A stretch of 64,000 nt of DNA. It comes from a virus. The translations under genes were made by a program, and so were the position numbers. The stretch lies in IMG/VR virus record IMGVR_UViG_3300025770_000004, positions 62,001-126,000 of that record; one strand, 5' to 3'. Below the pieces are notes generated by a model. The model had not been told where the DNA came from and searched no databases. It saw nothing but the letters and a program-made list of their open reading frames with translations. Positions 27,471 through 53,925 of this stretch are shown here, in pieces. The stretch's first letter is position 1; each line of letters begins with the position of its first letter.

Positions 27471-27851
27471 TTAGATTGATCTAAGATCCAACACACCTAT
27501 TAAATTAAAATTTGATTTAGGGAGGGATGATTTTAAATAATTACCTTCTTCTAACATACTTTCATCATCTTCTTCATAATACCAATTAACCTCCGTCTCC
27601 ATAGCTGATTCATATAACTCTTTTACCAAATGGAAAAGGTATTTAGTTGAAACTGAATTTAATATTTCTAATGCTATTCTGATTGTGATTTTAGATTTTC
27701 CCAAATCACTTTTACATTTATCAATCTCTTCCACTATCGGATCATAAAATAATGATGGGTGTTCTGGGTAAGATTTACCTATAATAGTAAGTGTACAGTT
27801 TTCTTTATCTAACTTTACGTATGGAGTACTTTGATCGCCCTTGATTATCAT
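27471..27851 (-). CDS. SiaC-family (DUF1987) regulatory phosphoprotein
   Basis: 126 residues covering the whole family: STPYVKLDKENCTLTI, GKSYPEHPSLFYDP (26-39), ILNSVSTKYLFHL (63-75) and VNWYYEEDDESMLEEG (88-103). In Pseudomonas, SiaC is phosphorylated by SiaB, dephosphorylated by SiaA and binds the diguanylate cyclase SiaD; the phospho-site region corresponds to Ser68/Thr69 here. The gene shares one base with the T9SS protein gene, so they are co-transcribed. A phage copy could titrate or rewire the host partner switch. The family call is firm; the role is inferred. Confidence 0.87.
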   Translation of the reverse strand: MIIKGDQSTPYVKLDKENCTLTIIGKSYPEHPSLFYDPIVEEIDKCKSDLGKSKITIRIALEILNSVSTKYLFHLVKELYESAMETEVNWYYEEDDESMLEEGNYLKSSLPKSNFNLIGVLDLRSI

Positions 27852-28822
27852 TATTTTATGATTATTTTTTTACTGTATAATAAATTTTCAGAAGTAGCAA
27901 CTACTAAATATGTGCCTGATGTAAGGTGATGAGGAATATCAATAACAACCAACCCATCTTTACAATCAACAAATTTTATTATAGAATATGCTTCATTACC
28001 TCTTATGTCTCTAAGAACAACTAGAATTCCCTGCTTATCTCGATGTAAACTTTCAAATGAAAGACTAATACATTCTCCTTTATTTACTGGGTTGGGGTAG
28101 ATGTTCATAATACCCTCACCTTTTATAGCGTTTTCAACAGGAATAATATTAAATGTCTCTTGCTTACCATCAAAATCGACTTGAGTGAGGCGATAGTAAA
28201 ATAGCCCCATTAGTGGGTTGTTATCAATTTCAAAATAATTGATTATGATATTACTATTACCTGCTCCCTTGGCTTCAATTACCTTACTCCATATAAATGT
28301 ATCTTTACTTTTCTCAACAATAAAATAGTCATTGTTTATTTCGGATGCAGTTGTCCATGATATTTCTACTCTATCTTCATTTACAATAGCATTAAATTCT
28401 ACTAATTCAATTGGTAAAAACCCGCTATTACTAACAATGGTTGGGCCTATTAAGGGAGGATCTGTTCCACTCCACCAAGTAGTTCCACCTATCGTTAATC
28501 TAGAACCAGAATTACCACCGGTTAATGTTCCTCCAGTATAAATTTCAACAATACCATCACTATCCATGTTGATTTTCTTTCCATTACTGAACTGCATTGT
28601 TCCATAAACTTCAATCCTCATATCAACATAGGTAGGGCTGTTTAAATCAACTACAACAGTCATAGAAGAAGGGATAACCATAGTATCCCCATCCGATGCA
28701 GGTATATACCCACAATCCCAAGATGAAGCACTACTCCAATTACCATTATCTACAACCAGTGTGCACATAGCTGGTATAGTATTTGTTATTGATAGTAATA
28801 TGGTTATTAATAGATTTTTCAT
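27851..28822 (-). CDS. Secreted protein with type IX secretion C-terminal signal
   Basis: 323 residues. An N-terminal signal peptide (MKNLLITILLSITNTIPAMC) is followed by a beta-helix-like stretch (about 20-130, NGNWSSASSWDCGYIP, then Gly/Thr repeats). Next come a Bacteroidota linker domain (LPIELVEFNA to VDFDGKQETF) and the T9SS sorting domain: IYPNPV at about 240 and the closing GTYLVVATSENLLYSKK. The T9SS is exclusive to Bacteroidota and exports such proteins to the surface. A phage gene of this type implies host-surface modification or a captured host gene. Confidence 0.9.
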   Translation of the reverse strand: MKNLLITILLSITNTIPAMCTLVVDNGNWSSASSWDCGYIPASDGDTMVIPSSMTVVVDLNSPTYVDMRIEVYGTMQFSNGKKINMDSDGIVEIYTGGTLTGGNSGSRLTIGGTTWWSGTDPPLIGPTIVSNSGFLPIELVEFNAIVNEDRVEISWTTASEINNDYFIVEKSKDTFIWSKVIEAKGAGNSNIIINYFEIDNNPLMGLFYYRLTQVDFDGKQETFNIIPVENAIKGEGIMNIYPNPVNKGECISLSFESLHRDKQGILVVLRDIRGNEAYSIIKFVDCKDGLVVIDIPHHLTSGTYLVVATSENLLYSKKIIIK

Positions 28823-29572: not shown

Positions 29573-30310
29573 TTATTTATTCAATTTTTTAGCAATTTCT
29601 GTCTCTGACATACGAGGTAATTCCTCTTCGATTGGATATTTTGTAACTATCCAAAATTTCTCACCATCATCCATATAAGTTATATCTATATAATACCCAG
29701 AACATTTTACTTTCAAGTGTGAATCACTTATAGACACAGGAATAATCTCTGATTTTGGGTCGAGTTGGTAGTTTTCAATCTTTCTTATAAAATTCCAATT
29801 ATCACTCTTATAAAATTCCTGCTTCAAAAGTTTCAGAAACTTACCCTCTTTTTTTACTATCTCATTTTTTCTAACACCAAAAACATCTTTGTGTTTAAAT
29901 CCTAAAGTTATATGAAAGTCGTGATCTTTTAACCCATATCTAGTTCTAATAGCATCTAATTTATCACTTTTACAAACAATAAAATAAGCTCTGTTTGTAT
30001 TTCGTTCAGCGGTACCAATACCCATGAATTTCAAATCATCTATCTCATAGTTGAAAACTGAGTCAAGTGATGATACAAACTTATCCATACCAACTTCTTT
30101 AGAAAGTTTATTATAATCCATTACGTTAATAACGGTCATGTGATGTGATCCACCATCTCTTTTTTGTTGGTTCTCTGTAAAGTTTTCGAAATCAGAACCA
30201 ATAATTTCTTTTAATTGGTTTAAGTATGTTTCTATTGTTCCTTTATCGAATTTGATAGCCAGGTAGTTATTACCAACGACATCTTTTACATATGTAACGA
30301 AGTTTATCAT
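29573..30310 (-). CDS. 2H phosphoesterase-like protein
   Basis: 245 residues. Two H-x-T motifs at a 2H-like distance, HHMTVI (His57, Thr59) and DFHITLGF (His133, Thr135), with matching strands around them, define the 2H superfamily. Members open 2',3'-cyclic phosphates in RNA repair; the phage anti-CBASS protein Acb1 is also a 2H enzyme that cuts cyclic oligonucleotides. The C-terminal 90 residues are an extra alpha/beta module. The gene lies just downstream of the CCA-adding enzyme, which favours RNA metabolism, but an anti-signalling role is possible. Confidence 0.72.
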   Translation of the reverse strand: MINFVTYVKDVVGNNYLAIKFDKGTIETYLNQLKEIIGSDFENFTENQQKRDGGSHHMTVINVMDYNKLSKEVGMDKFVSSLDSVFNYEIDDLKFMGIGTAERNTNRAYFIVCKSDKLDAIRTRYGLKDHDFHITLGFKHKDVFGVRKNEIVKKEGKFLKLLKQEFYKSDNWNFIRKIENYQLDPKSEIIPVSISDSHLKVKCSGYYIDITYMDDGEKFWIVTKYPIEEELPRMSETEIAKKLNK

Positions 30311-30356: not shown

Positions 30357-31559
30357 TTATAGAATATTCTTGAATTTTTCAATCTCCAATCTCTTGATTT
30401 CCTTACCCAAGTTAGATCCCTTGAACCCTTGTAACATCAAATCTTTTGCAGAGACAGATGGTTTGTATTCAACAAACTTGATAAAATAATCATCTGTTAT
30501 GTTATTAACATCTAACCACTCTAAAATGGTTGTATCATCAATAGCGCATTGTTGTTTCTTTTTGAAAGTTTCAAATACCTTATCAGTATCGAATTTTAAG
30601 AAGTCAATTAAGAATATTATCTTAGATACTAAGTTATCTACACCAGTAACATCTGAACAAGAATCCATTTTATACTCTTGTATCAATTTAGTAGCCAAAC
30701 CACTAGTAGATTCGTTCTTAAATAGGTTAGATATAACAACAGCAAAGTTTTTACTATCAACCAACTCTGTGTTGATGTTAGCTCCAGGAAATACTTGATC
30801 CCACATATCAAACTTAGTAAAGAAGTTTAAGTAGTATCTGTAATCTTTAGCTTGCTTCCAAGCTTTAGTCATTTCTTCCCAAACTCTTTCTTGTGATATT
30901 CTTTTCATGTCTCCTGTCTCAGGATCGATGTTCTCAAGTTGTTTTCTCTTCTCTATTGCACGTTCTGTATCTTTGTGTAATGGATGTTCATATCTAGATG
31001 CAAATCTAAATGCTCGAAGAATACGAAGCGAATCTTCATCAAACCTCTCTATTGGCTCACCAACCATTCTAGTGATACCAGATTCTAAATCTGCCTTACC
31101 GCCAGTTAAATCTATAATTTCTTTCTTATCTAAGTCATAGAAAAGAGCGTTGTAAGTTATATCTCTACGCTTAACATCATCTTCAATAGTAACACCAAGT
31201 TTAACCTCAGGATTTCTACCTTTACTTATATCTTCTCTGAATGTAGCCACTTCCATTCCTTCTGGAATTTCATCTGTATAAACAACTACAACACCAAATG
31301 CCTTACCTTGTAAGTTAGTTCTGTATTTACCTTTAACAATCTCTAACACTTCATCCGGAAGTGCATCAGTTGCTAAATCAAAATCTTTTGGGGTGTCATT
31401 TGTTAAAAAATCACGAACTGATCCTCCAACAAGGTATAATTTCTTACCACTTGATTGGAAAAGTTTATGCAAATCTTTAACTGAATCTGGAATTATGTTC
31501 CACATATCTTGTTCTGTTTTAGTTGATTCTAAAAATTTTTTGTATTTTTTGATTATCAT
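30357..31559 (-). CDS. CCA-adding/poly(A) polymerase-type tRNA nucleotidyltransferase with targeting-like N terminus
   Basis: 400 residues. The N terminus MIIKKYKKFLESTKTE fits the targeting-like signal. Class II nucleotidyltransferase motifs follow: LYLVGGSVRDFL (41-52), DFDLAT (59-64, catalytic Asp59/Asp61), VKRRDITYNAL, GEPIERFDEDSLRILRAFRF and the helical neck and body. It would add or repair tRNA 3' CCA ends, or tail RNA. It closes the operon of four tandem signal-bearing paralogues (16 bp after the last). A tRNA end-repair enzyme with a packaging signal would act from the first minute of infection, for instance against host tRNA-cutting defences; that is inference. Confidence 0.88.
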   Translation of the reverse strand: MIIKKYKKFLESTKTEQDMWNIIPDSVKDLHKLFQSSGKKLYLVGGSVRDFLTNDTPKDFDLATDALPDEVLEIVKGKYRTNLQGKAFGVVVVYTDEIPEGMEVATFREDISKGRNPEVKLGVTIEDDVKRRDITYNALFYDLDKKEIIDLTGGKADLESGITRMVGEPIERFDEDSLRILRAFRFASRYEHPLHKDTERAIEKRKQLENIDPETGDMKRISQERVWEEMTKAWKQAKDYRYYLNFFTKFDMWDQVFPGANINTELVDSKNFAVVISNLFKNESTSGLATKLIQEYKMDSCSDVTGVDNLVSKIIFLIDFLKFDTDKVFETFKKKQQCAIDDTTILEWLDVNNITDDYFIKFVEYKPSVSAKDLMLQGFKGSNLGKEIKRLEIEKFKNIL

Positions 31560-42438: not shown

Positions 42439-42674
42439 AAAAAATTAGTATAAGTTGAGCTTACCCAACATTTTGCTTTATGCTATCATCTATCTATTGC
42501 CACAAACCCGACCATCAAAGGGGAACCGATACCCTAGGTCTGTACGTGTCGCTACTTCCGTGGTAAAAACGACTATCCGAAGACTGTCTCCCACGTTAGG
42601 TTCAGTAGTGTCGAGGTTTCTCCAGTATATTCCACCCTTTCGGGACCGGCGATAGCTTCTCTGACTTATACTAA
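42439..42674 (-). ncRNA. Structured noncoding RNA, about 235 nt, unknown class
   Basis: The segment is far richer in G+C than its surroundings and lacks a plausible reading frame. The minus-strand RNA folds well. An 11-nt perfect inverted repeat closes it (42664-42674 with 42445-42455). Inside are: a 6-bp GCUAUC/GAUAGC helix (42651-42656 with 42482-42487); a hairpin CCC-GAAA-GGG (42635-42644); a composite arm CUACU/AGUAG (42604-42608 with 42552-42556) and CGUGG/CCACG (42591-42595 with 42559-42563) capped by a canonical C(UUCG)G tetraloop (42571-42588); GACC/GGUC with inner AGGG/CCCU-type pairing (42510-42540); and a 3' hairpin GUUGGG-UAAG-CUCAAC. G-U pairs occur only on the minus strand, which fixes the orientation. 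A run of six U follows, as in a terminator. Confidence 0.8.
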
Positions 42675-42679
42675 TCTTT

Positions 42680-43180
42680 TTAATCCAACACTAACATCAG
42701 ATTATATTCTCTTTGTAATTTAGTTTTCCAATTCGTTACTTTGTTTCTAATTAACTGATGTAGTGAATTGTATTCTTTTTTATTAATTTCTTTTTCGTCA
42801 CCAATATGTTTATTAAATAACATAACCAAATCTTCTGGTGTCATTTGCTTTGTAAATTGCTGCTCATGGAGATGGTATCGTCTACCAACTGGGTCTAAAA
42901 GGTTAATTTCATTGATGAAGTTAATAACTGGTAATATTTCATTCCAGTGTTCTCCTTTTTTATCCCATTTTGTAAACCATCTTCTTATATTTAAATGAAA
43001 ATAAATCATATTTTCAGAAAAAAACTCAAATGATAAATTTACTGATTTTGGTTTTACACCAATATATTTATTCCATTTTTCAATTAGATAATCTCTATCA
43101 CACTCAAACACTTTTATATCCATAGTTTGGTGGAAATGAAATGTGAAGTAAATAAGATTATCTAATTGCTCTTTTGTCAT
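42680..43180 (-). CDS. Unknown 166-aa protein
   Basis: I start at ATG 43180 (MTKEQLDNLIYFTFHF); the in-frame ATG at 43189 overlaps the promoter -7 box and cannot be in its mRNA. His/Phe/Tyr-rich N terminus (FHFHQTMDIKVFECDRDYLI), later a basic helix (LHQLIRNKVTNWKTKLQREY). The stop lies 5 bp before the structured RNA, so the two may share a transcript. No family recognised. Confidence 0.6.
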   Translation of the reverse strand: MTKEQLDNLIYFTFHFHQTMDIKVFECDRDYLIEKWNKYIGVKPKSVNLSFEFFSENMIYFHLNIRRWFTKWDKKGEHWNEILPVINFINEINLLDPVGRRYHLHEQQFTKQMTPEDLVMLFNKHIGDEKEINKKEYNSLHQLIRNKVTNWKTKLQREYNLMLVLD

Positions 43181-43186
43181 ATCTAA

Positions 43187-43217
43187 CAAATATAGTCAAA
43201 ATTGAAAGAAAAACAAA
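43187..43217 (-). promoter_or_regulatory. Host-type promoter TTTG-N19-TATATTTG
   Basis: Minus strand TTTG (43217-43214), 19-nt spacer, TATATTTG (43194-43187). It sets the downstream start at 43180 and may also drive the structured RNA. Confidence 0.65.
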
Positions 43218-52899: not shown

Positions 52900-53925
52900 A
52901 TGAAGATATTTACATTTTTAGTTTTATTACTACCATTTATTCTTAATTCACAAACAGTTATTTGGTCAGAAGATTTCGAATCATATACAGACGGTACACA
53001 AAATACTACCAAGTGGACTACATCTGCTAATAATTGTGATGCTGATGGAGCTCCCGGTACAGTTGGTAATAATTATTGGGGAACAAGAACAACCTTTGGT
53101 GATAAAGAATTTTGTTGTGAGGATATTGAGGGTTTAACTTGTTGTGTTAATAGCCAAGGTGAATCTGATAATATTTGGATATCAGAAGATATTAATATAA
53201 TAGGATATACTACTATGTCTATATCCATCTCAATGAGAGCTGAGGGTAACATGGAGTGTAATAGTTGTGGTTCTGGTGAGGACCTACTAAATGCCGAATA
53301 TCAAATTGATGGCGGTGTTTGGATAAACTTTATGGCAGTCTGTGGGGCTGTTAATGGTTATTCACAAATAGATTGTATAGATATTGGAACAGGATCTATA
53401 TTGAAAATTAGAGTATTATTAGGTAATCAAGCTGATACCGAAGAATATTACTTTGATGATATCTTTGTTTATGAAACAACTTGCTCTATTGCTCTACCAA
53501 TTGAATTATTATCTTTTACTGGTGAATACAACGAGAATAACGGCCTTGATGAGTTAAAATGGTTAACTGCATCTGAATCTAACAATGATAGATTTGAAAT
53601 CTATTCATCTATTAACGGAGAACAATGGAATTTTGTTGGTCAGGTTGCTGGTGCCGGTAACTCTAGTGAAACACTATCATATTATTATGATAATAAAACA
53701 ACCACAGACTTAGTTTATTACCGATTAAAACAAATAGATTATAATGGAGATTTCGAATACTTTAATATAATATCAATAAACAAAGATTCTGAAAGTCCAA
53801 TATCCATAAAGTACTATAATATTTTGGGTAAAGAATTGAAATATGAACCAAATACAGGATATTCCATACAAGTGATTTCATATAAATATAGAACAGAGTA
53901 TAATAGGGTTTATAACAATAATTAA
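52900..53925 (+). CDS. Secreted Bacteroidota-type protein, divergent T9SS-like C terminus
   Basis: 341 residues. Signal peptide MKIFTFLVLLLPFILNSQT. A jelly-roll-like domain (about 20-195) is rich in Cys (FCCEDIEGLTCC, MECNSCG) and acidic residues. Then comes the Bacteroidota linker domain: ALPIELLSFTGEYNENNG, LKWLTASESNNDRFEI and VYYRLKQIDYNGDFEYF, clearly related to residues 140-230 of the protein at 27851. The end (YYNILGKELKYEPNTGYSIQ) resembles a second type of T9SS-associated C terminus but lacks YPNP. Late-type promoter. A virion-associated or exported adhesin-like role is possible. Confidence 0.82.
   Translation: MKIFTFLVLLLPFILNSQTVIWSEDFESYTDGTQNTTKWTTSANNCDADGAPGTVGNNYWGTRTTFGDKEFCCEDIEGLTCCVNSQGESDNIWISEDINIIGYTTMSISISMRAEGNMECNSCGSGEDLLNAEYQIDGGVWINFMAVCGAVNGYSQIDCIDIGTGSILKIRVLLGNQADTEEYYFDDIFVYETTCSIALPIELLSFTGEYNENNGLDELKWLTASESNNDRFEIYSSINGEQWNFVGQVAGAGNSSETLSYYYDNKTTTDLVYYRLKQIDYNGDFEYFNIISINKDSESPISIKYYNILGKELKYEPNTGYSIQVISYKYRTEYNRVYNNN

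Follow-up and report, generated by a model that had tools for sequence, protein, structure and literature searches.

Compact and divergent RNase P RNAs predicted in large phages

Introduction

The window, as we call the 64,000-nucleotide stretch of a 312.7-kb viral sequence analysed here, encodes on its minus strand an RNA that, judged from its sequence and those of its relatives, represents a divergent and miniaturised form of RNase P RNA with a near-complete catalytic domain and a remnant of the specificity domain. We consider it very probable that this is the RNA subunit of an RNase P, acquired by large phages and reduced, which would mature the 5' ends of phage tRNAs. Counting the copy in the window there are 25 distinct RNAs of this kind; the 24 others come from large phages and viral contigs, with one from a metagenome-assembled genome.

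Nearly all cells have RNase P, whose RNA was the first to be demonstrated to act as a true enzyme with multiple turnover. To our knowledge, phages have been thought to borrow the RNase P of their host, and we know of no earlier description of its protein, RnpA, in phages. A search for earlier reports of an RNase P RNA in a phage returned none; it did not cover most subscription journals or bioRxiv, so that priority is unproven. Searched by term, RNase P is not mentioned in the huge-phage paper that describes Mahaphages (PMC7162821), in two overviews of jumbo phages (PMC7824862, PMC13282480) or in the paper on phage DLP_6 (PMC5349666). The novelty moves from a new class of RNA to the carriage of an RNase P RNA by phages.

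The RNA and its limits in the window

The RNA sits between the stop of an ORF at 43189-42680 (-) and the start of another at 42426-42220 (-). A reading of this region from sequence only had described a compact GC-rich island, and G+C content is indeed 45% at 42445-42674 compared with 29% for the window, which places it in the top 0.005% of 230-nt windows. The closing inverted repeat noticed then is an exact 11-bp helix (UUAGUAUAAGU/ACUUAUACUAA), and both of the tetraloops, CCC-GAAA-GGG and C-UUCG-G, were found. The extent of 235 nt (42439-42674) is correct for the island, but the RNA proper runs from 42674 to 42445 and positions 42444-42439 are a run of U. The six U are present as described. 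By contrast, the final hairpin proposed to precede them, GUUGGGUAAGCUCAAC, is the P4 3' strand plus J4/1 in the supported structure, so that it can be an alternative or terminator fold only.

That a compact, conserved and structured RNA is encoded on the minus strand was upheld. The parts of the same statement that placed it in no known class and set it apart from RNase P were not, given the architecture of the homologues, the covariation and the Rfam matches of relatives. An Rfam scan of the window at gathering thresholds gave no match, the window copy had no RNase P match even at E=10, and a search of the window's own genome with RF00010 was also negative, but relatives do match RNase P models. 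An Rfam hit as the test of novelty would therefore miss the RNase P identity, because the window copy lies below the reach of Rfam. Two matches in the scan of the RNA to E=10, mir-7360 and TCV_H5, were put down to chance. Neither ARAGORN nor Rfam detected a tmRNA or a tRNA in the 64-kb window. MFE folding of the minus strand gave z=-0.37, with 68 of 200 shuffled sequences folding as well, and the plus strand was uninformative (z=-1.44); MFE gives the RNA no support, probably owing to the pseudoknot in its actual fold.

Two copies of CGACAC(G)UAC had been pointed out, and both are present, one in P4/P5 and the other in J5/15-P15. Their resemblance is probably coincidental. We dropped the idea of a protein-binding motif, since the elements that hold the two copies are unrelated and relatives do not keep both. 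A group I intron core built from GGAUAGUC and ACAGACC was also discarded; the order of the segments does not fit and there is no Rfam intron match.

Homologues and identification as RNase P RNA

The 634-kb phage LR745206 has a copy that is ~90% identical by BLAST over a 320-nt query consisting of the RNA and its edges. The protein encoded by the gene flanking the RNA has only 62% amino acid identity to that of the window, which indicates that the RNA is conserved beyond chance. Another copy is on contig L004, and the 642-kb phage LR756502 has a much diverged one after the same upstream gene as in the window. This diverged copy reads GUGAGGAAGUUCAACAC ... CAAUAGACAAAUGAUGU ... ACAGAAAGUUGACUA, which are the signatures that RNase P RNA has at CR-I, CR-IV and CR-V. 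More copies were found in LR756511, in contigs L007, L010 and L011, in the 735-kb phage LR756501 and in the cultured Stenotrophomonas phage DLP_6, where the RNA occupies 105,777-106,015. Scanning viral contigs with a pattern for the 3' core yielded 24 contigs, 22 of them new, all of which match the HMM at E<=2.5e-15. Contig L008 (5001-5850) has the same upstream gene as the window with no RNase P RNA after it, and this state may reflect either loss or gain of the RNA within the group.

An HMM made from seven members with the window clade left out found a single place in the window, the RNA itself (E=8.4e-26). Rfam RNase P models matched twelve homologues at the predicted place, all below the gathering score; no member, that of the window included, reaches this score, which is a criterion of the database and not a biological one. 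The best of the twelve, at 70.8 bits with bact_a (E=1.7e-19), was L020, a contig assigned by binning to a metagenome-assembled genome of Planctomycetia, where the compact RNA lies beside three tRNAs. DLP_6 scored 54.7 bits with the same class A model (E=1e-14), L011 46.8 bits with arch (E=1.4e-10) and L010 38.6, and L003 gave 32.4 bits (E=7.6e-6). The other scores were 44.1 (L031), 40.7 (L047), 37.7 (L044), 36.7 (L042), 27.0 (L036), 25.4 (L040) and 22.3 bits (L030). The archaeal model (RF00373) is the best one for eight of the twelve, perhaps because it is short. Unlike archaeal RNase P RNA, the phage RNAs have a bacterial core motif and, where a phage-encoded partner was found, it is the bacterial-type RnpA.

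We also searched in the reverse direction, with a 26-nt core motif of the phage RNAs against 257 Gb of prokaryote genomes. Twelve contigs contained the motif and 10 of them have RNaseP_bact_a above the gathering score at that very spot; carriers of this rnpB motif include Lacihabitans, Alistipes, Spirosoma and Cyclobacteriaceae. As for the remaining two, L018 is cut by the edge of the locus and L020 is the further compact member described above. Together, these data demonstrate homology to RNase P RNA.

Covariation and secondary structure

Ten members were aligned by hand over six helices (P2, P3, P4, P5, P15 and P16), and 292 of 300 cells were paired. When the 3' strands were shuffled among eight representatives, the observed pairing was never reached in 5000 trials. 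Similar results were obtained with MAFFT alignments, which were made without fitting to the structure. With ten sequences 90.7% of cells were paired compared with 71.4% after shuffling (0 of 500 shuffles did as well) and 33 pairs had double changes. With 24 sequences pairing was 94.4% versus 69.4%, with 186 double-change cells versus 52, and it fell to 30-44% when the partners were slid. The covariation with homologues that the earlier reading had called for is thus present, and it establishes the secondary structure. Support is strongest for the P2/P4 pseudoknot, which is a hallmark of RNase P and has double changes in 10 of its 14 pairs. P1 was paired in 84% of cells in the ten-sequence alignment. 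The elements are listed in the table.

Table. Elements of the window RNA and genes considered with it (window coordinates unless another record is named)
Feature	Location	Strand	Evidence or remarks
RNase P RNA (rnpB-like), 230 nt	42445..42674	(-)	24 other distinct homologues; leave-clade-out HMM; covariation
U6 tract, likely transcript end	42439..42444	(-)	sequence; kept in LR745206 and L004
P1 5' strand UUAGUAUAAGU	42664..42674	(-)	11 bp with 42445-42455; double changes in 7/11 pairs
P1 3' strand ACUUAUACUAA	42445..42455	(-)	alignment of ten
P2 5' strand GCUAUC	42651..42656	(-)	paired to 42482-42487 in 99.3% of cells (24 sequences); double changes in 5/6 pairs
P2 3' strand GAUAGC, pseudoknot with P4	42482..42487	(-)	alignment of 24
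P3 stem CCGGU/ACUGG (42649-42645/42626-42622), inner CCC-GAAA-GGG hairpin	42622..42649	(-)	alignment, pairing
CR-I / J3-4 AGAA (AGGA in most other phages)	42618..42621	(-)	alignment
P4 5' strand ACCUCGACA, one bulged pyrimidine	42609..42617	(-)	paired to 42463-42470 in 98.4% of cells (24 sequences)
P4 3' strand UGUUGGGU	42463..42470	(-)	alignment of 24
P5 5' strand CUAC	42605..42608	(-)	pairs with 42552-42555; double changes in all four pairs
P5 3' strand GUAG	42552..42555	(-)	alignment of 24
Reduced specificity (S) domain of ~49 nt, with a GUGG/CCAC helix plus a GAC-A-GUC(UUCG)GAU-A-GUC hairpin	42556..42604	(-)	pairing
P15 (CAC/GUG), P16 (GACC/GGUC), P17-like AGGG/CCCU hairpin, L15	42501..42548	(-)	helices 97%, 97% and 88% paired
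P15 strands	42548-42546/42503-42501	(-)	alignment of 24
P16 strands	42540-42537/42513-42510	(-)	alignment of 24
L15 GGGUUU, containing GGU	42504..42509	(-)	GGU here in 24/24 aligned members
CR-IV UAGAUAGAU	42488..42496	(-)	pattern UAGANANAUG invariant in 24 members
J2/4, CR-V: AUAAAGCAAAA (AUAGAACAGAA in many others)	42471..42481	(-)	window clade departs from ACAGAA
Upstream gene, no known family	42680..43189	(-)	precedes the RNA in five phages
tRNA nucleotidyltransferase / poly(A) polymerase family protein	30357..31559	(-)	PF01743, 106 bits
rnpA	LR745206 76444-76752 (L016)		PF00825, TIGR00188
rnpA	LR756502 525189-525473 (L015)		PF00825, TIGR00188

The consensus of RNase P RNA is GGAAAGUC in CR-I and ACAGAA..GGCUUA in CR-V, and most members are near it (GGAAGUUC and ACAGAA..GGCUA). 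In the window clade the same regions read GAAACCUC and GCAAAA..GGGUAA, so that near-constant bases are changed in CR-V (ACAGAA to GCAAAA), in CR-I (GGAAG to GAAAC) and at the P4 3' end (GGCU to GGGU). Before the P2 3' strand, CR-IV is UAGAUAGAUGA in the window and AGAUGAAUGA in the RNase P consensus. The second pair of P4 is swapped in the window clade from G-C to C-G on both sides at once, which points to selection rather than decay. One nucleotide of P4 is unpaired in the hand-aligned members; it is U in LR745206 and most others, and C in the window and L004 (or U if the register is shifted by one base). We take the bulged pyrimidine of the window RNA to be at the position of the universal U69 bulge. 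The GGU of L15 would be the expected contact to the RCC at the tRNA 3' end, by analogy with bacterial RNase P.

The S domain, together with the base changes confined to the window clade, distinguishes the window RNA from bacterial RNase P RNA. In the 49 nt between the P5 strands of the window RNA, CR-II and CR-III of the bacterial type were not recognisable by eye. A specificity domain with CR-II and CR-III is not universal, being missing from known truncated RNase P RNAs. The GUGG/CCAC helix is 81% paired in 24 sequences, with covariation, and the hairpin has an A-U to G-C swap in LR745206. In P3, L004 has CCC-GUAA-GGG in place of CCC-GAAA-GGG and an extra hairpin inserted.

Gene setting: tRNAs, RnpA and nucleotidyltransferase

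The gene directly before the RNA is the same in the window, LR745206, LR756502, L004 and L007. Its product has no Pfam match, and relatives that a single-protein search did not return were found by an alignment-based search. In other carriers the RNA is mostly within or near tRNA arrays: it lies between tRNA-Gln and tRNA-Pro in L011 and directly precedes tRNA-Arg, inside the array, in DLP_6. Five named phage records have 34-62 tRNAs each and the record of the window has 6; the nearest complete relative of the window has 56.

LR745206 and LR756502 also encode RnpA. Both proteins are over the PF00825 cut-off and score 44.3 and 52.5 bits, respectively, with the TIGR00188 equivalog model (cut-off 38.35 bits). 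The best PDB match of the phage RnpA is an RNase P protein, and its motif is KRAVDRNR(V/I)KRLMRE. The nearest complete relative of the window is one of these two phages. RnpA was not found in the window's own 312.7-kb record, which is the available genome fragment, or in most carriers. A ClpP-like gene adjoins rnpA in LR745206 and likewise has no match in the window's record; since both neighbours are absent, the record may lack this region of the genome.

A nucleotidyltransferase gene lies 11 kb from the RNA in the window, and eight of nine carriers have one (seven over the cut-off). The window protein is a plausible partner for 3' ends in the maturation of phage tRNAs. CCA was encoded in none of 11 tRNAs in the stretch of LR745206 that was checked and in all 15 in that of DLP_6. 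Adjoining the nucleotidyltransferase gene in the window is one for a 2H-SAK phosphoesterase (29573-30310, -), possibly an RNA end-processing enzyme. Elsewhere in the window, two signal-peptide proteins (27851-28822, -; 52900-53925, +) have C-termini that by eye are like the sorting domains of Bacteroidota type IX secretion, which suggests a host in the Bacteroidota.

Discussion

From these observations we infer how the RNA would act. It may be transcribed with the upstream gene, or just after it, and end at P1 and the U6 tract. P4 and the conserved junctions would fold into the active site, a precursor tRNA would be held at its CCA end by the GGU of L15, and its 5' leader would be cut off by the RNA. 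The likely protein partner is RnpA, encoded by the phage in the case of the nearest complete relative and elsewhere perhaps supplied by the host. The substrates would be the tRNAs of the phage itself during infection, and those lacking an encoded CCA could have their 3' ends finished by the phage nucleotidyltransferase.

The main doubt about this model comes from the core changes in the window clade, which leave room for an RNA that does not cut. Such a descendant of RNase P could be a decoy or inhibitor that binds host RnpA or precursor tRNAs without cleaving them and so blocks the maturation of host tRNAs. Several of the altered bases are near the active site, the specificity domain is reduced, and the many carriers without RnpA would have an RNA that must share that of the host. 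We think a decoy unlikely, because the core of other members is near-canonical (GAGGAAGUUCG, ACAGAA and GGCUA), the large tRNA sets of the carriers themselves require RNase P, two carriers encode their own RnpA and P4 of the window clade is fully paired through its double change. The departures in CR-I and CR-V, as well as the lack of an Rfam score for the window copy, would also fit a decaying relic, a phage rnpB whose activity was lost in the window clade. Decay seems very unlikely to us when the RNA is so much closer to that of LR745206 than is the protein of the adjacent gene, and when changes within the clade are compensatory or in loops (G-U to G-C in P4, A-U to G-C in the S hairpin, and GGG/CCC to GGA/UCC in the P17-like hairpin).

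The identity of the RNA is a separate matter. Without an Rfam match, the window copy viewed by itself might belong to an unrelated new class that merely resembles RNase P, an idea that we find barely credible given an unbroken chain of homologues to Rfam-matched RNAs and to bacterial rnpB, and a topology that is identical down to the pseudoknot. RNase P RNA is normally cellular, and a host rnpB could in principle enter a viral record by an error of assembly or binning. We attach next to no weight to this, since the RNA is embedded in a virus record of 312.7 kb, is syntenic across independent phage assemblies and is present in a cultured phage, DLP_6. The phage RNAs are also without the large bacterial specificity domain, being 199-274 nt long in the ten members measured compared with about 340-400 nt for the bacterial matches.

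A phage-borne RNase P RNA remains our preferred reading, and it can be compared with known systems. The phage RNAs resemble bacterial class A (RF00010; rnpB or M1 RNA) in the order P1-P2-P3-P4-P5-P15-P16 with the P2/P4 pseudoknot, in the GGU of L15, in the CR-I and CR-V motifs of most members and in a core motif that recurs exactly in the rnpB genes of Lacihabitans, Alistipes, Spirosoma and other taxa. They differ in being encoded by phages, in their size, in scoring below the Rfam cut-off and in an S domain of about 45-110 nt (ten members); the departures in CR-I and CR-V are confined to the window clade. Type T and other truncated RNase P RNAs, known from Pyrobaculum and mitochondria, have lost most of the S domain and retained the catalytic domain. 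Going by descriptions of these RNAs, they belong to other lineages, and the phage RNAs are set apart by having kept, between the P5 strands, a small hairpin domain. The nearest precedent in the papers searched is a report on Mycobacterium austroafricanum, in which extra copies of RNase P RNA are described and horizontal transfer is suspected; one copy has an altered specificity domain (PMC9569102). Unlike the RNAs studied here, those copies are in bacterial genomes, and in that report a phage origin is ascribed to an extra tmRNA only (PMC9569102).

We lean towards the broader view that large phages have an RNase P of their own, in the form of a distinct class of RNAs with a minimised specificity domain that occurs across tRNA-rich phages of different hosts. 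Some Mahaphages would add a phage RnpA and nucleotidyltransferase to make up their own line of tRNA maturation, to which the rewired catalytic core of the window clade may be adapted. Huge phages could then carry, besides tRNAs and tmRNA, a key RNA-processing ribozyme of roughly 200-275 nt, a point relevant to the question of why tRNAs are retained by phages when the translation of the host is under attack. With about two dozen minimal RNase P RNAs available from nature, one may ask how little specificity domain suffices, and DLP_6, a cultured phage, can serve as a test case. Rfam cut-offs appear to have concealed an entire class of phage RNAs.

As RNAs for translation carried by the same type of genome, these RNAs are like phage tmRNA with SmpB and the tRNA arrays; unlike tmRNA, RNase P is an RNA-processing ribozyme. 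At the edge of the stretch examined, DLP_6 has the 3' portion of a gene for a tmRNA-like or permuted tmRNA (L013, 1-94); the DLP_6 paper does not mention a tmRNA (PMC5349666). The 105-kb viral contig L011 has 52 tRNA matches, and between 5067 and 13265 it brings together a GOLLD RNA, a tmRNA, the RNase P RNA, a group I intron and a long tRNA array, so that tmRNA and GOLLD are near the RNase P RNA.
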